From Bacteroidales bacterium (GTDB lineage: Bacteria > Bacteroidota > Bacteroidia > Bacteroidales > UBA1556), in NCBI GenBank assembly GCA_027064095.1, contig JAMOQI010000065.1, positions 1-35,921 of the forward strand: 35,921 nt of DNA, written 5' to 3'. The position numbers and the translations under genes are program-made. Positions 660 through 20,395 of the stretch are shown here, in pieces (within the stretch, counting starts at the first letter, position 1; each line of letters opens with the position of its first letter). The notes under the pieces were generated by a model, which was not told where the DNA came from, did not search any database, and worked only from the letters and a program-made list of their open reading frames with translations.

Positions 660-1121
660 CTAAGAAACAAGGTGAAATTTAAATATAAAGGCGACGATAA
701 TGCCTACAATTGTACCTACTAATACTTCCACAGGAGTGTGTCCTAACAACTCTTTTAATCGTTCTTCGTTAAAGCGTTCATCTACGAGTTTACTCAAAGA
801 AGCCCCCAGACGATTTAATACACTCGCCTGTTTTCCGGCAGCTCTTCTTATTCCTGCTGCGTCATGCAATACAATAATAGCAAATACAATACTAACTGCA
901 AAAAGTGGTGTTGCCGTTCCATAGACAATTCCAACCGAGGTGACTAAAGCACTTACTGTTGATGAATGGGAACTTGGCATACCTCCTGTTTCCCAGAAGC
1001 GTTTTATACTTAATTTTTTATCACTTATAATACTAACAATGACTTTATAAAATTGAGCGATAAACCAAGCTATAAAAACTACGTCTAAAATACTGTTTCC
1101 AAAAATAATTCCACTTTCCAT
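660..1121 (-). CDS. Divergent PAP2 family membrane protein (DUF212, YuiD-like)
   Basis: This 153-residue integral membrane protein has the family's hallmark GGMPSSHSS at about residues 46-54, next to a hydrophobic segment, and an LLGHTPVEVL motif near the C-terminus (about 125-134). These correspond to the phosphatase-signature remnants of the divergent PAP2/vanadium-haloperoxidase-related family, whose members are usually about 150 residues. Known relatives of PAP2 dephosphorylate lipid phosphates, but the activity of this subfamily is not established. The start is the ATG at 1121. The gene follows the SDR gene by 39 bases with no promoter seen between them, so it is probably the last gene of the acyltransferase-SDR-PAP2 unit. 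A small lipid-phosphate role is an inference from context. Confidence 0.9.
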   Translation of the reverse strand: MESGIIFGNSILDVVFIAWFIAQFYKVIVSIISDKKLSIKRFWETGGMPSSHSSTVSALVTSVGIVYGTATPLFAVSIVFAIIVLHDAAGIRRAAGKQASVLNRLGASLSKLVDERFNEERLKELLGHTPVEVLVGTIVGIIVAFIFKFHLVS

Positions 1122-1160
1122 GATTTCATTGATTTATATTTTACAATATGAATATGATTT

Positions 1161-1979
1161 TTAATTATTATAAAAAAAATCTTTTCTGTTTAATTCCTGT
1201 AACTTTTTAACTACTTGTGTTGTGGTTTTTCTGGGAATAAACTTTGTTGCATTCACTAATGAAGTATTTACAAAACCGGGTATTGCCACTCTTTTTCCTT
1301 TGTGTAAAGCTTTATACCCATATTTGGCAACATCTTCAGAAGAAGAAAGTAAATTTAGTTTTGTCAATTTGGAATTTTCACTTCCAACTTCATTTTGAAA
1401 CCCCGATTTTGTAGGACCTGGGCATAAAGTTGTTACAGTAACTCCTGTTCCTATTAATTCGCTTGTTATTGCTTCGGAAAAAGACTGAACATAAGCTTTA
1501 CTTGCATAATAAACGGCCATATATGGTCCCGGTTGAAAAGCTGCCATTGATGATACATTCAATATTTTACCTTCTTTTCTTAATACCATTCCTTTTAAAT
1601 ATAATTTAGTTAGTTCGGTAAGTGAAATAATATTGATTTGTAAAATTTGTGATATTTTTAATAAATTTTCATTATTAAATTTTTCAAAATCGCCTATTCC
1701 TGCATTGTTTACTAGTACATCAATAATAATTTGTTTTTCTTCTGTTTTGTGAAATATTTCGTGTGCGACATTTGGTATTGATAGATCTTTAGCAATTATT
1801 GTAACATTTATGTTATACTTATTACTAAGGTTTTCTTGTAGTTCTTTTAGTTTGTATTTATTTCTCGCTACCAAAACCAAATCATAAGAATCTTTTGCAA
1901 ATAATTTTGCCATTTCATATCCAATCCCTTTTGTAGCACCTGTAATCAATGCTGTTTTTCTAGTTTGATAATTATTCAT
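1161..1979 (-). CDS. Short-chain dehydrogenase/reductase (DltE/YqjQ-like SDR)
   Basis: This 272-residue classical SDR has the cofactor motif TGATKGIG at about residues 14-21, NNAG at about 91-94, a catalytic Ser in NVSSMAA and the YYASK catalytic Tyr/Lys motif at about 158-162. CPGPTKSGF follows, as in the NADP-dependent DltE-like group. An Arg after the second beta strand (VARNK) fits NADP preference. The length is normal. The substrate cannot be read from sequence; relatives act on lipids, sugars or steroids. Its start lies 21 bases after the end of the frameshifted acyltransferase and it precedes the PAP2 gene, so the three probably share the promoter at 2593-2643. If so, this gene is still expressed although the first gene of the unit is broken. 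Confidence 0.92.
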   Translation of the reverse strand: MNNYQTRKTALITGATKGIGYEMAKLFAKDSYDLVLVARNKYKLKELQENLSNKYNINVTIIAKDLSIPNVAHEIFHKTEEKQIIIDVLVNNAGIGDFEKFNNENLLKISQILQINIISLTELTKLYLKGMVLRKEGKILNVSSMAAFQPGPYMAVYYASKAYVQSFSEAITSELIGTGVTVTTLCPGPTKSGFQNEVGSENSKLTKLNLLSSSEDVAKYGYKALHKGKRVAIPGFVNTSLVNATKFIPRKTTTQVVKKLQELNRKDFFYNN

Positions 1980-2000
1980 TGTTCATAAGTTTAAAATCAA

Positions 2001-2556
2001 TTATTTGATAAAAAAATAGCTGTATCGTTTGTCTAAAATTAAATCTTTAGGATATTTTGCAATTACATTTTTATACATTTGAGATATTTCCGTTATAGTT
2101 CTTTTCATATCGCTTGTGTTCTGTATTACGCTTTTAAATTTCATTTGTTTCTTTTTATAATAATCAATGTAACCAACAACAATTGGAACATTTGCCTTAT
2201 ATACCATATAATAGAACCTTTTTTTCAACGATTAGTTTTTGCAAGTTGTTCTTCTGGAGGAAGGAAGATGTGTAAGTTCCGGTTTTTATTAAATAGCGAA
2301 ACAACCTCATCAATATATTCCTTGTTTTGGGAAAAGGGAATTGAGCTATAATATATTTCAACGGAAAATAAAAGAACTCTTTTTTAGATAGAAATTTATA
2401 GTTAATATCATATTGTATAAGCAATAATTTACAGTAAAACCCATCCCAAAAGTTTGTGTGTGGGGAAAATACGAAAACAGATTTGCTGAGGTTTGGTAAA
2501 TCATCTGTTATTTTCCAGCCTAGTGTTTTTAATGTTTTATTTGATATTGATTTCAT
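2001..2556 (-). pseudogene. PlsC-like acyltransferase with two frameshifts
   Basis: Pieces of one acyltransferase are spread over three frames. The first frame (from the ATG at 2556) carries PHTNFWD, the H-x4-D catalytic motif, and LSKKEFFYFPL. Near 2335-2345 the homologous reading moves to a second frame (PFSQNKEYIDEVVSLFNK, then IFLPPEEQLAKTNR), which hits TGA at 2227-2225 where the family has a conserved Trp. The third frame continues KKRFYYMVYKANVPIVVGY to the stop at 2001. Adding a single G after the TG at 2227-2226 restores RWKK and joins frames two and three. The first lesion is also a -1 type shift and may include a small deletion of the usual GGIP segment. The full product would be about 185 residues, resembling small lysophospholipid acyltransferases. 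Two shifts within 120 bases argue for real decay, although base-calling error at the A7 run is possible for one. Confidence 0.85.
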
Positions 2557-2592
2557 ACGACTATTAATTTTTTGCTACTGATTAATTAAATT

Positions 2593-2643
2593 ATAAAATA
2601 AAGTGAGTTAGTATTATCAACTGTAATTTAAGTTGCACAACAA
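2593..2643 (-). promoter_or_regulatory. Promoter with shared upstream element, copy A
   Basis: On the minus strand a 32-base element (2643-2612) contains GTTGTGCAACTTAA and ends in GTTGATAATA. Its TTG serves as a -33-like box, followed 17 bases later by TATTTTAT (2600-2593), a near match to the -7 element TAnnTTTG. The element matches copy B (3518-3487) at about 27 of 32 positions with the same 17-base spacing. It should drive the acyltransferase pseudogene, SDR and PAP2 genes. Confidence 0.6.
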
Positions 2644-2657
2644 AAATAATTTAGTTC

Positions 2658-3449
2658 TTATAATTTATTATATGATTGTTTAATAAATTCTGCATCATAT
2701 TTTCTTTCCAGTTTTCTTATTATAAAATGTCCTTTTGCTACATCTTGAAAATGGTCGATAAACATTGTATTAATTAAAGCTCCGCCAACAGCTCCAATTA
2801 TTGGCATTGCTTGTGCGGCGGCTTTTTCTCCTATTTGAACTCCAAATCTTTGAGCGATGTTTGCTATAAATCTTAATAAAACAGGTGAACCTTCTTTAGT
2901 TATTCCTTTCGTTGCAATAAATTCATTGGTCTCTGCTATTGACCTTGCTAATGCAGAACGAACAAAGAAATACCCGGTATCTACATCATCATCAGATTTA
3001 GACTTGCCTCCAAAAGCAAAAACTTCTAAACAGGCTAATTTTGATTCTGTAGTATTAATTTTCTCTCCTTGAGACCTTGCTATATCAGTAATTGAGCGTA
3101 ACATAATTGACGTTGATATTGGTAATTCAATTGCTAAAGCTGAAATTCCGAAAAATCCGCCAACGCCACCCGATGCTGCTACACCTAATTTGTGCCAACC
3201 ATTAGAAGTATTTTCTTTTGGAATATCTTTCATTGTTAATAATGTGCCTTCGGCAATTTTAAGCATTGTTTTGGTTGTAATATTTCCTAATCTGTTACGC
3301 CAATCAAAAGGTAACACATCAAATCCTTTCTCAATAGGTTTTCCAATAAAATTAGTAATTTTAGCTGTAATTCCGGGATTTTCTAATAAAGCTTTTGCCG
3401 TTTCCAGTTCTTCTTTATCTGCTTTCGTTAATTTATTGCTTCTAATCAT
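2658..3449 (-). CDS. EcsC family protein
   Basis: This 263-residue protein fits the EcsC family in length and in its alternating amphipathic and small-residue-rich stretches: the Gly/Ala-rich AASGGVGGFFG region at about 91-101, ELPIST at about 107-112, and the C-terminal AMPIIGAVGGALIN segment at about 218-231 followed by an HFQDVAKGHF motif. EcsC is named from the Bacillus ecs operon and its molecular role is still unknown; a membrane-associated function is usual. The gene has its own promoter with the shared 32-base element (3468-3518). It sits between a lipid-enzyme unit and a Crp/Fnr regulator. The start is the ATG at 3449, 19 bases from the -7 element, leaving a very short leader. No catalytic residues can be assigned. 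Confidence 0.88.
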   Translation of the reverse strand: MIRSNKLTKADKEELETAKALLENPGITAKITNFIGKPIEKGFDVLPFDWRNRLGNITTKTMLKIAEGTLLTMKDIPKENTSNGWHKLGVAASGGVGGFFGISALAIELPISTSIMLRSITDIARSQGEKINTTESKLACLEVFAFGGKSKSDDDVDTGYFFVRSALARSIAETNEFIATKGITKEGSPVLLRFIANIAQRFGVQIGEKAAAQAMPIIGAVGGALINTMFIDHFQDVAKGHFIIRKLERKYDAEFIKQSYNKL

Positions 3450-3467
3450 ATCTAATTTATTTTACTA

Positions 3468-3518
3468 CAAAAATATAGTAATTTGATATTATCAACTACC
3501 ACTTAAGTTGCATAACAA
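3468..3518 (-). promoter_or_regulatory. Promoter with shared upstream element, copy B
   Basis: On the minus strand the 32-base element (3518-3487) reads GTTATGCAACTTAAG and then GTTGATAATA. Seventeen bases after its TTG comes TATTTTTG (3475-3468), a perfect TAnnTTTG. The TTG also starts a perfect 13-base palindrome, TTGATAATATCAA, which resembles an FNR-type site. It directs the EcsC gene. Copy A has the same element at the same spacing. Confidence 0.7.
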
Positions 3519-3604
3519 TAATTTTTTAATAAATGCAATATTGTTGCAGAAAATGAGAAAAGCGGAAGAGTGAAAATTATATCTTAGTTTCGAATAAATT
3601 GCAT

Positions 3605-4321
3605 TTATATAAGAAAAGGATTTCGTCTTTTAAATTCTTCTATCAATTTATGAATATTATTTATTTCAAGGCTTTTTCTTTGTACGGATAACAGTTGACT
3701 GTTTTTTAAATCTTGAATATGGCGGTTGACAACATTTCGTGCGCTGCCAATCATTTTAGCAATTTGTTCATGTGAAAGATTGTTGATTAGTGATAACTTT
3801 CCTGTATCATTGTCTGTATTTCTTAAAATAAGTTTAACTAATCTTGTCCATGTGTCATATAGTACAAGGTCAGTTGCTGATTCTTCAAAATGTCTTAGTT
3901 GTTTCCCCAGATAAGGCAACAGTGCTTTATTAAAATCAGGATGTATATATAACCATTCCCTTGCCACTTCAATGGGAGCTGCTAATAACTCCATGTCGTC
4001 CAATGCAGTGGCAATGATATTATGTTCTTTTTTATCAAGTAAACATATTACATCATAAATATCTCCCGGCCCAAGTATATCAATTATATATTCTCTGTCT
4101 GTGTCAAAATTCATTACTGATATTTCTACTCTTCCGGAAATTATCACATAAATATTATACATGGTTGACTCAGATGTAAACGGATAATTATCTTTAAGAT
4201 ATTTTTTGCTATGAAACATTCTTAAGATTTTATGTAAAACATCATCCTCAATTTTAGAGAAGATTGGAGATTGCTTGAGAGTATTAAAGTAATAGGAATA
4301 ATTTGCGGTTTCTTTTTCCAT
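3605..4321 (-). CDS. Crp/Fnr family transcriptional regulator
   Basis: This 238-residue protein has an N-terminal cyclic-nucleotide-binding-type beta roll (about 20-135; IYVIISGRVEISV and ILGPGDIYDVICLLD) and a C-terminal winged helix (about 160-225; LSHEQIAKMIGSARNVVNRHI, with the recognition helix around SARNVVNRHIQDL). There is no N-terminal cysteine cluster, so it is not an FNR-type iron-sulfur sensor, and the usual cAMP-contacting Arg-Ser pair is not evident, so the ligand is unknown. The start lies one base after the stop of the exported patatin gene, which indicates translational coupling and one operon with the two phospholipases. Its most obvious candidate targets are the two neighbouring promoters that share a 32-base element; this is inference. 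Confidence 0.93.
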   Translation of the reverse strand: MEKETANYSYYFNTLKQSPIFSKIEDDVLHKILRMFHSKKYLKDNYPFTSESTMYNIYVIISGRVEISVMNFDTDREYIIDILGPGDIYDVICLLDKKEHNIIATALDDMELLAAPIEVAREWLYIHPDFNKALLPYLGKQLRHFEESATDLVLYDTWTRLVKLILRNTDNDTGKLSLINNLSHEQIAKMIGSARNVVNRHIQDLKNSQLLSVQRKSLEINNIHKLIEEFKRRNPFLI

Positions 4322-4322
4322 T

Positions 4323-5411
4323 CTAATCTAGTTTATTGTTATACTCTTTTAGGCTGTTAATAGCTGCATGTCGACCAATTTCAACTAATTCTTCTGCTTT
4401 ATAGAAATCAAAAATATCACACGATTCTCTGGATACGTTTATTAAAATGTCTGGTGGATATTTTTCTATCGTCATTTTTGATATTTGATAGGTGAGTAAA
4501 CCTATTGTATTATTAATAAGTTTAAAATATCCTAATTTCTCTTTTTTCGTTTTAGAATTAAATTCATTTTGAAACGTATCAATATTTTTTTGATATTTTA
4601 ATTGTCTTTTCTTTCTTTCTTCTGATGATATAGGTGGTGTATATACAGGAACATTAGCATTTACATGAACAACAATTAATATATCATCTTTGGTTCTTTT
4701 TACATGATTAATAGGAACAGGATTCATAACGCCTCCATCAACAAGCAGAGAATCTCCCACTTTTACGGGTGTAAATATTGTAGGTATAGCAATTGAGGCC
4801 CGTACTGCCTTATAAACACTTCCTTTTGTAAAAACTACTTCTTTCTTATTTGTAATATCTGTAGCTGTGGCTGAATAATTAATTTTTAAGTCTTCAATAT
4901 TTCTATCAGGAATAAATTCTTTCATCTTTTTTAAGACTTTATTCCCTTTTACTAATCCTTGTGAACTGAATGAAAAGTCAATATATTTGTAAGTGTCTAA
5001 TTTATCCATAGTGTATATCCAGTTTTTAAACTCTTCCATTTTCCCAAGAGCATAAACAGCACCTACAAGAGATCCCATAGAAGTCCCTGATATTGAAACA
5101 ATTTCGTAGCCTTGTTTTTCTAGTTCTTCAATTACTCCTATGTGTGCAATTCCTCTTGCCCCTCCACCTGATAATACTAATGCTACTTTTTTCTTTGTAT
5201 TATTCGTTTTTGTGTTTTCGTTACTTGAATTAAGTAGCAAGGAAGTGTCTTTAGAGCTTGAGTTTGGATAAATATAATAATTAGGGTTTGTGTTCTCTGC
5301 AATTTCGATAGTGTTAATTTTTTCTTGATATTGCTGTACCTCTTGCGCCTGTAATACTTTCATTCCTAATAGGAGAAGCAATGTGCTTATTAGTAATATG
5401 TTATACTTCAT
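4323..5411 (-). CDS. Exported patatin-like phospholipase
   Basis: This 362-residue protein has a Sec signal peptide (about residues 1-22, ending LQAQ), a ~50-residue Asn/Ser/Thr-rich linker, and a patatin domain starting near residue 75. The oxyanion loop GGGARG is at 82-87, the nucleophile elbow GTSMG places Ser111 as catalytic, and DGG gives Asp225 as its partner. Patatin-like proteins hydrolyse acyl esters of phospholipids or other lipids with a Ser/Asp dyad. With no lipobox Cys or beta-barrel it is probably periplasmic or secreted. It is the second gene of an apparent operon: the cytosolic paralogue ends 47 bases upstream and the Crp/Fnr gene begins one base downstream. The catalytic domain is clearly a close paralogue of its upstream neighbour; the added export leader is the main difference. 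Confidence 0.93.
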   Translation of the reverse strand: MKYNILLISTLLLLLGMKVLQAQEVQQYQEKINTIEIAENTNPNYYIYPNSSSKDTSLLLNSSNENTKTNNTKKKVALVLSGGGARGIAHIGVIEELEKQGYEIVSISGTSMGSLVGAVYALGKMEEFKNWIYTMDKLDTYKYIDFSFSSQGLVKGNKVLKKMKEFIPDRNIEDLKINYSATATDITNKKEVVFTKGSVYKAVRASIAIPTIFTPVKVGDSLLVDGGVMNPVPINHVKRTKDDILIVVHVNANVPVYTPPISSEERKKRQLKYQKNIDTFQNEFNSKTKKEKLGYFKLINNTIGLLTYQISKMTIEKYPPDILINVSRESCDIFDFYKAEELVEIGRHAAINSLKEYNNKLD

Positions 5412-5458
5412 ACGTCTAGTTATTAATGTTAATTTTTAATTTTGAGAATTACAGTTCT

Positions 5459-6343
5459 TTATACTAATTTTTTATTATACTCTTTAAGGCTTTTAATGGC
5501 GGCATATCGTCCTATCTCTACCATTTCTTCGGCTTTGTAAAAATCCATAGTACCACAAGAATTATGAGATACTTCAATCATTATATCTGGTGGTTGTTGT
5601 TTAAATGATAAATAGGCATTATGATAAATCATTAGGTTAATGGTTTTATTAATTAGGTCGAAATAACCAATTTTTTTATTATTATTTAAGGGGTTGATTT
5701 TTTGCAAGTGGGTTTTAAATTCACTTACTTTCTTTTGGTATATTGACTCCTTTCTGGCGCGTTCTTTTTCTGATATTATAGGTTTATAAACAGGAATATG
5801 TGCGTTAACATTTACAACAACTAAAATATCATCAGGGGTTCTTTTTACGCGGTTAACGGGGATATTGTTTACAACTCCACCATCTACCAATAATCCTTCA
5901 TCTGTTTTAACAGGAGTAAATACCGTAGGAATTGCAACGGATGCTCGAATGGCATTATAAACACTTCCCTCTGTAAAAACTACTTCTTTGTTATTAATAA
6001 TATCAGCGGCTACGGCAGCATAAGGTATTTCTAAGTCTTCAATATTTTTATCAGGAATAAATTCTTTCATTTTATTAAATACTTTATCTCCTTTAATAAG
6101 TCCTTGAATTCCAACATTAAAATCAATAAGATTAAAGACTTCTAACTTGTTTAATTTGTACATCCAGTTTTTATACTCTTGCATCTTCCCTGTAGCGTAT
6201 ATACCGCCAACCAAGGCTCCCATAGAAGTGCCAGAAATAGATTTGATGTTAAATCCTTGTTTCTCTAATTCTTCAATTACACCAATGTGAGCAATTCCTC
6301 TTGCTCCTCCACCGGATAATACTAATGCTATATTTTTCTTCAT
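5459..6343 (-). CDS. Cytosolic patatin-like phospholipase
   Basis: This 294-residue protein begins directly with the patatin domain: GGGARG at 11-16, GTSMG with Ser40, and DGG with Asp154. No signal peptide or membrane segment is present, so it should be cytoplasmic. It aligns along its whole length with residues 75-362 of the next gene, including the C-terminal DFYKAEE motif followed by EIGR and SLKEYN, so the pair arose by tandem duplication. Ser/Asp dyad lipid hydrolysis is the family function; the substrate is unknown. It appears to be the first gene of the patatin-patatin-Crp/Fnr operon. A 13-base palindrome lies 14 bases before its start. No canonical -7 element was found upstream. Confidence 0.93.
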   Translation of the reverse strand: MKKNIALVLSGGGARGIAHIGVIEELEKQGFNIKSISGTSMGALVGGIYATGKMQEYKNWMYKLNKLEVFNLIDFNVGIQGLIKGDKVFNKMKEFIPDKNIEDLEIPYAAVAADIINNKEVVFTEGSVYNAIRASVAIPTVFTPVKTDEGLLVDGGVVNNIPVNRVKRTPDDILVVVNVNAHIPVYKPIISEKERARKESIYQKKVSEFKTHLQKINPLNNNKKIGYFDLINKTINLMIYHNAYLSFKQQPPDIMIEVSHNSCGTMDFYKAEEMVEIGRYAAIKSLKEYNKKLV

Positions 6344-6802
6344 AATACTAAATTTTGAGTTTGAAACTCTCGTTGCAATATTTCATTACTCTATCATTTT
6401 TATACACTATTTACTTCTTTTTATTTTTAGTAGACTTTTTTGGATGTGTCATTATGTTGGGTGACGACTGATGTAATAGTAGTAGCACTTTTCAAAGTGA
6501 TGTTGTTTAATTTTACCAAATAGCTAAATTTTTTCTGATAAATCAGTAAAATTAAAGATTTGGCGAGGTTGGGATATGAGAAATAACGTTGCAATTTTCT
6601 ACCATAAAGCTATTACTTTTACATTTGTGTGCCTCCAGCATAAGCTAAACCACACTCAATTCAGAGTTTTGAATAAATTCCAAAAATACAAATTTAATTT
6701 AGTAATAAAAGAATAATATTGGGAAAAGGTCAAAATAAGATTTAGCCTGCCTTTGAAAGAGGGAAGGAATCTGAAATATTACAAAAATATAAATGCTATT
6801 TT
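6344..6802. other. 459-base divergent intergenic region with palindrome and repeated GTTGCA sites
   Basis: This spacer separates the leftward patatin operon from the rightward TamB-like gene. At 6357-6369 there is a perfect palindrome, GAGTTTGAAACTC, close to the patatin start, suggesting an operator or leader hairpin. CGTTGCAAT occurs twice (6371-6379 and 6587-6595), each followed by a similar T-rich stretch; GTTGCA is also the core of the shared element at 2.6 and 3.5 kb. No convincing gene was seen here, and no RNA gene. Confidence 0.4.
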
Positions 6803-18196: not shown

Positions 18197-20395
18197 ATGG
18201 AAAAATTAATATACCTTGATTATAATGCTACAACTCCTATTATTGAGGAAGTAGCAGATGTAATGAAACCTTTTTTAGATACCTATTTTGGAAATCCTTC
18301 CAGCAGTCATAGCTATGGTGTGAAAACCAAGATGTTTGTTGAAAATGCCAGAAAGCAAGTAGCTGCCTTAATGAACTGCCAAGCTGAAGAAATTGTTTTT
18401 ACAAGTGGTGGGAGTGAATCTAATAATTATGCTATTAAAGGCTACGCTCTGGCAAATAAATATAGAGGTAATCATATTATTACATCCAGTGTTGAGCATC
18501 CTGCTGTAATTGAAGTTTGTAAGTATTTGGAAACTAAAGGTTTTGAAATTACTTATCTTCCTGTTGATGAGCAGGGTAGAGTGGAAGTCGAGTCTCTTAG
18601 AAAATCCATTAAACCAACAACTATTTTGGTTAGTATTATGCATGCTAATAATGAAGTAGGAGTGATCCAACCTATAAAAGAATTGGCGGAAATAGCACAT
18701 GAACATGGGGCTGTTTTTCACTGTGATGGAGCTCAGTCTGTTGGTAAAATATTAACAAAAGTCGATGAGTTAGGAGTTGATTTAATGAGTATTGCGGCTC
18801 ATAAATTTTATGGTCCAAAGGGTATAGGAGCATTATTTATTCGTAAAGGGATTAAATTAGAGAAACTTATTCATGGTGCTGATCATGAACGAAATCTTAG
18901 AGCCGGTACTGAGAATATTTTGGAAATAGCGGGTATTGGTAAAGCTGCTGAGGTTGCCTTAAGAGACTTGGAAAAGAATGCTGTGCATTATTCAAAAATG
19001 CGTAATAGACTCGAAGAAAAATTAAAAAGTGAATTACCATATATTGTTATTCATGGTGCAAAAGCTGAGAGACTTCCTAATACTTCATCTGTAGGTATTC
19101 CAAAGGTTGAGGCTAATACTCTTTTAGATGAATTAGAGGGCGTTGCTGCTTCTGCCGGTGCAGCTTGTCATACCGATTCAATTGATGTTTCTGCTGTTTT
19201 GGAAGCTATGCTTGTACCTTTAGATTTTGCTATGGGAACAATTCGTTTTTCTGTCGGTAAATATACTACTGAGGAAGAAATAGATAAAGCCGTGCAGTTA
19301 TTTGCTGATAAAGTTAGACAAATTAAAGGGGAGGATAGTAATGAACTCGTGCAAATTGCTAGTAATGATATTAAACTAACCCATTTTACCCATGGCCTTG
19401 GTTGTGCTTGTAAATTAAGACCACAAGATTTGGAGTTAGTATTACAGAAGTTGCCTATCCCTAAAGATGCCAATGTGCTTTTGGGTGCTGATACATCCGA
19501 TGATGCTTGTGTGTACTCATTGAGAGAAGATTTAGCACTAGTACAAACTCTTGATTTCTTTACACCCATTGTAGACGATCCTTTCCAATTTGGTGCTATT
19601 GCTGCGGCTAATGCATTAAGTGATGTATATGCCATGGGTGCTAAGCCTATTTTCGCTCTTAATATTGTTGGTTTTCCGGATAAAAGACTACCTTTAAGTG
19701 TACTTGAGGATATACTTAAAGGTGCACAATCCAAAGCTACTGAAGCTGGAATTAGCATTCTTGGTGGGCATACAGTAGAAGATAGTGAACCAAAATATGG
19801 TATGGTGGTTAGCGGTATTATTCATCCTGATAAGATTTTAAAAAATATAGGTGCTGAAAATGGTGATAAACTTATACTTACTAAGCCTATTGGTACGGGC
19901 ATAATTTCTACAGCTGTAAAAAGAGGTGTTGTTGAGAAAACTTTAATAGATTATGTTTCAAATCTTATGGCTACTCTTAATAAAGATGCAGCTGAGACTA
20001 TGCTGCAATATGATGTTCATGCTTGTACTGACGTTACTGGTTTCGGACTATTAGGTCATTTACGAGAAATGATACTTAATACTGATGTTGGTGCTGTGCT
20101 AAATTTTGATATGATTCCTTTCATTCCTGAGGCGCGTGATTTTGCTGTTGCCGGAATTATTCCTGGTGGTACAAAAAATAATTTAGACTGGGTGTCAGAG
20201 GATGTTATTTGGAATAATGATAGATCTGAAATTGATAAGATATTAGCTTGTGATGCTCAAACGTCTGGAGGATTGCTTATTGCTGTAAGTGCTGCTGATG
20301 TTGATAAACTATTAGCTGACTTACGTCAAAAATCCATAGATGCTCATATTATTGGTGAATTTACTAACGATTTGCCGGCAAAAATAAAGATATAG
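18197..20395 (+). CDS. selD: Fused cysteine desulfurase (NifS-like) and selenophosphate synthetase (SelD)
   Basis: One continuous frame of 732 residues joins two enzymes. Residues 1-378 are a class V aminotransferase-fold cysteine desulfurase: LDYNATTP near the N-terminus, PLP-binding Lys203 in AAHKFYGPKG, and catalytic Cys324 in SAGAACHTD. Residues ~392-732 are SelD: LTHFTHGLGCACK with Cys403 (E. coli Cys17 position) and Lys406 (Lys20 position), LGADTSDDACVY, GGHTVEDSEPKYG, and DVTGFGLLGHL. SelD makes selenophosphate from selenide and ATP, and NifS-like proteins release sulfur or selenium from (seleno)cysteine, so the fusion could pass selenium directly from one site to the other. NifS-SelD fusions are reported from a few bacteria. 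The active-site residue is Cys (TGT), not selenocysteine. No selA, selB, selC or selU is visible in the window. Confidence 0.95.
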   Translation: MEKLIYLDYNATTPIIEEVADVMKPFLDTYFGNPSSSHSYGVKTKMFVENARKQVAALMNCQAEEIVFTSGGSESNNYAIKGYALANKYRGNHIITSSVEHPAVIEVCKYLETKGFEITYLPVDEQGRVEVESLRKSIKPTTILVSIMHANNEVGVIQPIKELAEIAHEHGAVFHCDGAQSVGKILTKVDELGVDLMSIAAHKFYGPKGIGALFIRKGIKLEKLIHGADHERNLRAGTENILEIAGIGKAAEVALRDLEKNAVHYSKMRNRLEEKLKSELPYIVIHGAKAERLPNTSSVGIPKVEANTLLDELEGVAASAGAACHTDSIDVSAVLEAMLVPLDFAMGTIRFSVGKYTTEEEIDKAVQLFADKVRQIKGEDSNELVQIASNDIKLTHFTHGLGCACKLRPQDLELVLQKLPIPKDANVLLGADTSDDACVYSLREDLALVQTLDFFTPIVDDPFQFGAIAAANALSDVYAMGAKPIFALNIVGFPDKRLPLSVLEDILKGAQSKATEAGISILGGHTVEDSEPKYGMVVSGIIHPDKILKNIGAENGDKLILTKPIGTGIISTAVKRGVVEKTLIDYVSNLMATLNKDAAETMLQYDVHACTDVTGFGLLGHLREMILNTDVGAVLNFDMIPFIPEARDFAVAGIIPGGTKNNLDWVSEDVIWNNDRSEIDKILACDAQTSGGLLIAVSAADVDKLLADLRQKSIDAHIIGEFTNDLPAKIKI

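Follow-up and report, generated by a model that had tools for sequence, protein, structure and literature searches.

The 35,921-nucleotide stretch of Bacteroidales DNA analyzed here (the window) carries two copies of a promoter element that has spread among distant lineages of Bacteroidales along with a single Crp/Fnr-type regulator and envelope/lipid genes. It is near certain that the element is a real promoter element, and sequence comparisons make it very probably the operator of the adjacent regulator, with which it forms a candidate regulator-operator pair. The features of the window that bear on this pair are as follows.

660 to 1121, minus strand: divergent PAP2 family protein (DUF212)
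1161 to 1979, minus strand: short-chain dehydrogenase (SDR), downstream of the acyltransferase remnant
2018 to 2556, minus strand: acyltransferase pseudogene (PF01553 in its intact relative), frame broken relative to locus L027
2593 to 2600, minus strand: TATTTTAT, a decayed −7 box; in the relative L027, this place reads TATTTTTG, with 6 additional nt
2612 to 2641, minus strand: second element copy, GTTGTGCAACTTAAATTACAGTTGATAATA, upstream of the acyltransferase remnant
2658 to 3449, minus strand: intact EcsC-family protein (PF12787), behind the element at 3487 to 3516
3468 to 3475, minus strand: TATTTTTG, serving as −7 box of the EcsC promoter and lying 17 nt past the TTG of the element
3487 to 3516, minus strand: operator-like element of the EcsC promoter, GTTATGCAACTTAAGTGGTAGTTGATAATA, found in the same place in the orthologous loci L026 and L027
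3493 to 3510, minus strand: inverted repeat CAACT-N8-AGTTG within the element, candidate regulator dyad, centered at about −38.5
3605 to 4321, minus strand: Crp/Fnr-type regulator with HTH_Crp_2 and cNMP_binding domains, recognition helix S-A/V-R-N-V-V-N-R; proposed binder of the element
4323 to 5411, minus strand: patatin-like phospholipase, directly upstream of the regulator gene
5459 to 6343, minus strand: second patatin-like phospholipase

The element was first noticed by eye. As placed in that initial annotation, the two minus-strand 32-bp blocks do agree at 27 of 32 positions, and in both of them 17 nt separate the TTG of AGTTG from TATTTT, as had been claimed; the surroundings are also as dissimilar as was stated, since the 42 nt preceding the blocks agree at 19 of 42 positions, near the AT-rich background. 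Within the window, the pattern TGCAACTTAANTNNNAGTTGATAATA matches at two places only (2612 to 2637 and 3487 to 3512, both on the minus strand and with 0 mismatches), and it matches nowhere in 100 dinucleotide-preserving shuffles of the window, even with up to 3 mismatches allowed. When the host assembly (2.13 Mb, 86% complete) was scanned with a 22-nt core, the two window copies were the only matches at 0 mismatches; the six remaining matches all had 3 mismatches, and a reversed control pattern also gave six. The two window blocks are the only near matches to the element in the host genome. The idea that GTTGCA at 6372 and 6588, upstream of the patatin operon, marks autoregulatory sites did not hold up: with 19 instances of GTTGCA/TGCAAC in 36 kb, these two are unremarkable, and we rejected them as sites, the sequence around them not being kept in relatives.

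Using the regulator as the query across 85,000 species genomes, we found orthologues at four Bacteroidales loci (L026 to L029, at 96, 95, 89, and 77% identity), and the element adjoins the regulator gene at all four. It precedes the EcsC gene in L026 and L027, the intact acyltransferase gene in L027, a radical-SAM gene in L026, and a gene for a 232-amino-acid amphipathic-helix protein in L026, L028, and L029. In total there are 13 copies in six genomes, including G350, in front of at least four kinds of genes (EcsC, acyltransferase, radical-SAM, and amphipathic-helix genes). The absence of further copies upstream of orthologues in related genomes had been named in advance as grounds for giving up the idea; such copies exist, upstream of orthologues as well as of other genes of the related clusters, as expected of the small local envelope/lipid regulon that had been proposed. 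A sequence-only profile (R1) built from eight sites and run on the whole genomes carrying L026 to L029 returned one to four strong copies per carrier (E, 1e-19 to 8e-11) and no further match below an E of 0.06 in these genomes; G398, the genome of L026, appears identical to G291 and was counted once. Five of the 13 copies played no part in building the search model, and the G350 copy was found though that genome had contributed nothing to it.

The commonest target of the element is the amphipathic-helix gene, which the initial annotation missed and which is missing from the window; a homology search found no such gene anywhere in the window's genome. Homology revealed six full-length amphipathic-helix genes in five carriers, as well as one that a contig end cuts short; every one of them has the element. 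Two copies lie on contigs separate from that of the regulator, each preceding a second amphipathic-helix gene. No element was found upstream of the EcsC genes of the more distant relatives L024 and L025, as is expected where the regulator is lacking, and for two of the carriers the rest of the family was likewise without it.

The alignment of all 13 copies is free of gaps up to the start of the −7 box and reads TTGTTGTGCAACTTARGTGGYAGTTGATNATATNAA, followed by TATYTTTG from element position 42. Between promoters of different genes, identity is 0.83 to 0.94 in the element and 0.88 to 1.0 in the −7 box, and it drops to 0.47 to 0.68 in the spacer that joins them; upstream of −8 and beyond about +13, it is close to shuffled values. 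Two conserved blocks at a fixed distance with a free spacer between them are what results when selection acts on both a regulator site and a promoter, and the initial claim that element and spacing are both selected is thereby upheld. The similarity of different-gene promoters nevertheless runs past the −7 box to about +13, and this excess suggests that the promoters were multiplied by the copying of a cassette of about 75 bp, so that the copies may not be fully independent. One might go further and regard the copies as remnants of a recently duplicated promoter segment, alike by descent and with no specific operator function. We consider this very improbable, given that the spacer has diverged while both ends stay at 0.83 to 1.0 and that copies in six genomes have kept the register.

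The sequence TANNTTTG is the −7 consensus (PMC6847099) of promoters read by sigma-ABfr, defined in B. fragilis, B. thetaiotaomicron, and F. johnsoniae (PMC7366714, PMC6847099), and the promoters carrying the element share it: ten of the 13 −7 boxes fit it exactly, the others being those of G350 (TATCTTTA), one G400 copy (TATTATTG), and the decayed acyltransferase copy of the window. In the numbering of the F. johnsoniae −7 box, which runs from T−12 to G−5 (PMC6847099), the element spans about −53 to −25, and the dyad CAACT-N8-AGTTG is centered at about −38.5, a class II-like position. As in class II sites, the element overlaps the −33/−35 region at a fixed distance from the −7/−10 box, with 13 of 13 copies in register. 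Where ordinary sigma-ABfr promoters have TTTG at −33, these promoters have the element's conserved downstream arm, AGTTGAT, again at a fixed distance. The dyad itself is only moderately significant, as arms of this length also turn up when the consensus is shuffled, in about 3.5% of cases. The alignment of the 13 copies gives CAACT-N8-AGTTG rather than a CRP/FNR-type palindrome, and both the arm orientation and the 18-bp span differ from those of textbook CRP or FNR sites, which counts against the reading that we favor.

The regulator is a bona fide Crp/Fnr protein of no named subfamily. It scores 33.9 bits against PF00027 (cutoff, 27.5) and 43.1 bits against PF13545 (cutoff, 27), and it falls short of the cutoffs for NtcA (46.8 versus 245 bits), CRP (46.2 versus 266 bits), and Fnr (17.3 versus 228 bits). 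It resembles the class II activators of the superfamily (CRP, FNR, NtcA, and CooA) in having HTH_Crp_2 and cNMP_binding domains and in the placement of its proposed site near −40, adjoining a housekeeping −7/−10 box, and among solved chains, those nearest to it are Crp/Fnr regulators, NtcA, and CooA. It differs from them in its recognition helix, R-N-V-V-N-R, which is without the usual Glu. Among 61 aligned sequences, Asn at position 196 of this helix occurs only in the group to which the regulator belongs; in the other 44 sequences, this position holds Glu in 32 and Asn in none. Known Crp/Fnr regulators have operators such as TGTGA-N6-TCACA, TTGAT-N4-ATCAA, and GTA-N8-TAC. The proposed operator, GTTGTGCAACTTARGTNNYAGTTGAT, is unlike all three, and the Asn peculiar to the group fits an operator unlike CRP or FNR sites. 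The system is most likely a Crp/Fnr local regulon with an unusual operator and reading helix.

Occurrence ties the two partners together, in keeping with the earlier proposal that the element is linked to the neighboring Crp/Fnr gene. Among the 393 genomes of the order, three have the regulator (E ≤ 1e-20), and these three are also the ones with the element (E ≤ 1e-4); within the clusters, regulator and element adjoin each other. Linkage partly forces this co-occurrence, as the mobile cluster that holds the regulator also holds most of the copies, and sites for the search model came from two of the three genomes. A search within the genus gave only paralogues at 17 to 26% identity, with no orthologue in the ten other genomes covered, and a search of viral contigs gave no relative. 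The closest relatives in Bacteroidia (G531 and G634) were considered and set aside, their neighborhoods being different and without the element. Two Bacteroidia genomes hold tandem pairs of Crp/Fnr genes (L098, 4680 to 7192; L099, 4937 to 7699) that are distant relatives of the regulator, each gene being followed by one for a secreted protein of about 178 amino acids, with no element nearby.

Taking these observations jointly, we consider it likely that the 30-bp element is the operator of the neighboring regulator, held in a promoter cassette of about 75 bp that was copied upstream of several genes belonging to a single, horizontally moving envelope/lipid cluster, and that it works by class II-like activation. 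The regulator would bind the CAACT-N8-AGTTG dyad centered near −38.5, the downstream arm of which would take the place of the −33 box, and once bound it would aid RNA polymerase with the housekeeping sigma factor of Bacteroidota in using the TATYTTTG −7 box 17 bp farther on. Whereas the element, its copies and spacing, its linkage, and the transfer and decay described below are read directly from the DNA, we infer the binding of the regulator, the activation, the dyad that is read, and the sensing of a signal. The same regulator and site could instead serve repression, with binding over −53 to −25 blocking polymerase until a signal releases it. Coverage of the −33 region by the element would suit this, as would the FNR-like TTGAT-N3-ATCAA that the EcsC copies show across the −26 region, but most of the 13 copies lack the TCAA arm of that dyad, and a center near −38.5 combined with a poor −33 box (AGTTG instead of TTTG) is typical of activator-dependent promoters. 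On balance, we favor activation over repression, which we regard as unlikely.

Less likely still, the element could be an extended promoter of an alternative (ECF-type) sigma factor or be read by another regulator borne by the cluster or the host. Near invariance over 29 bp at a fixed spacing is what a sigma-factor promoter would show, and the weakness of the dyad points the same way; however, the downstream box is the ordinary housekeeping TANNTTTG, the Pfam-scanned cluster proteins include no sigma factor and, as their sole regulator, the Crp/Fnr protein, and the Crp/Fnr gene is common to all genomes with the element.

The second promoter of the window fared differently from what was initially supposed. 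Compared with L027, the acyltransferase gene has a 10-nt gap and a 1-nt gap by which the reading frame is lost, and its PEG motif reads PEE. Its promoter also lacks 6 nt (TATTTTTGTATTATAA in L027, TATTTTATAA in the window), a loss that alters two of the six nearly invariant −7 positions (PMC6847099). Hence, where two working promoters had been claimed, the acyltransferase copy is a decayed promoter in front of a frameshifted pseudogene, and of the two proposed −7 boxes, the EcsC box is intact and TATTTTAT represents decay, because the 6-bp loss damaged it. Unless the metagenome assembly is at fault, the acyltransferase unit thus appears to be decaying in the window's genome.

The whole patatin/regulator/EcsC/SDR/PAP2 cluster (660 to 6343) has been acquired horizontally, and recently between lineages, a transfer absent from the initial account. 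The comparison that indicates this is between Lon, at 59 to 65% identity between the window's genome and the carriers, and cluster proteins such as the regulator (95 to 96%) and EcsC (93 to 94%) relative to L026 and L027, along with the lack of an orthologue in other members of the genus; in L027, SDR and PAP2 are 90% and 95% identical to those of the window. The base composition of the cluster is unremarkable (30.1% versus 31.3% GC), and its right-hand junction is not fixed by comparison within the genus, because members differ in the gene that lies upstream of the TamB-like one. Further cluster proteins include a glycosyltransferase, an LPG-synthase-type membrane protein, MMPL, LolA-like, and radical SAM proteins, and a UbiB-type kinase, and this content, with the patatins, EcsC, acyltransferase, SDR, and PAP2, points to a probable role in membrane-lipid or envelope remodeling. 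In L028 (3319 to 4872), a DDE transposase gene is inserted between the patatin genes of the cluster.

Possible relatives occur on plasmids of other phyla. In the plasmid collection, the closest regulator is on pSULKU01 of Sulfuricurvum kujiense (37% identity over 96%; E, 7e-38), with the related helix GSARKVVN. There, in a Crp/Fnr-DUF6781-BON-UbiB neighborhood (L110, 10032 to 12720), it adjoins genes for a helix-rich DUF6781 protein, a helical exported protein, and a UbiB/AarF kinase, the last being the best plasmid match of the cluster's UbiB, and the order resembles that in L029 (regulator, amphipathic-helix protein, helical protein, UbiB). It differs in that no element is recognizable by eye upstream of the DUF6781 gene and no patatin or EcsC is present in the stretch shown. 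On plasmid 2 of Polaromonas sp. JS666 (L111, 8273 to 19716), genes for DUF6781, UbiB, a glycosyltransferase, patatin, a polyprenyl synthetase, and RND efflux follow one another, accompanied by a TetR-type regulator gene; this row is likely a relative of the same mobile module. Because homology between the helical proteins of pSULKU01 and of the cluster is not detectable by BLASTP, the two plasmid rows are a lead toward a wider module, not proof of one. It is a tentative idea, and rather doubtful, that a Crp/Fnr subfamily with an altered code (Asn for Glu) reads a previously undescribed, asymmetric operator of about 30 bp in promoter cassettes of a moving membrane-lipid cluster, and that with its versions on plasmids of Campylobacterota and Betaproteobacteria it might form a mobile envelope-stress module that crosses phyla.

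We found no paper joining Crp/Fnr, patatin, and EcsC in this sense and, among the literature matches listed, no bacterial regulatory use of TTGTGCAAC. What began as a motif seen by eye has become a testable regulator-operator pair in a phylum with few known operators, with 13 natural variants of the element and one natural loss at hand. It also presents an accessory cluster of envelope/lipid genes that brings its own regulation along when it moves, and the altered recognition helix offers a direct test of how Crp/Fnr proteins shift specificity. Elsewhere in the window, a 732-amino-acid frame (18197 to 20395, plus strand) encodes what, judged by eye, looks like a cysteine desulfurase fused to a selenophosphate synthetase.
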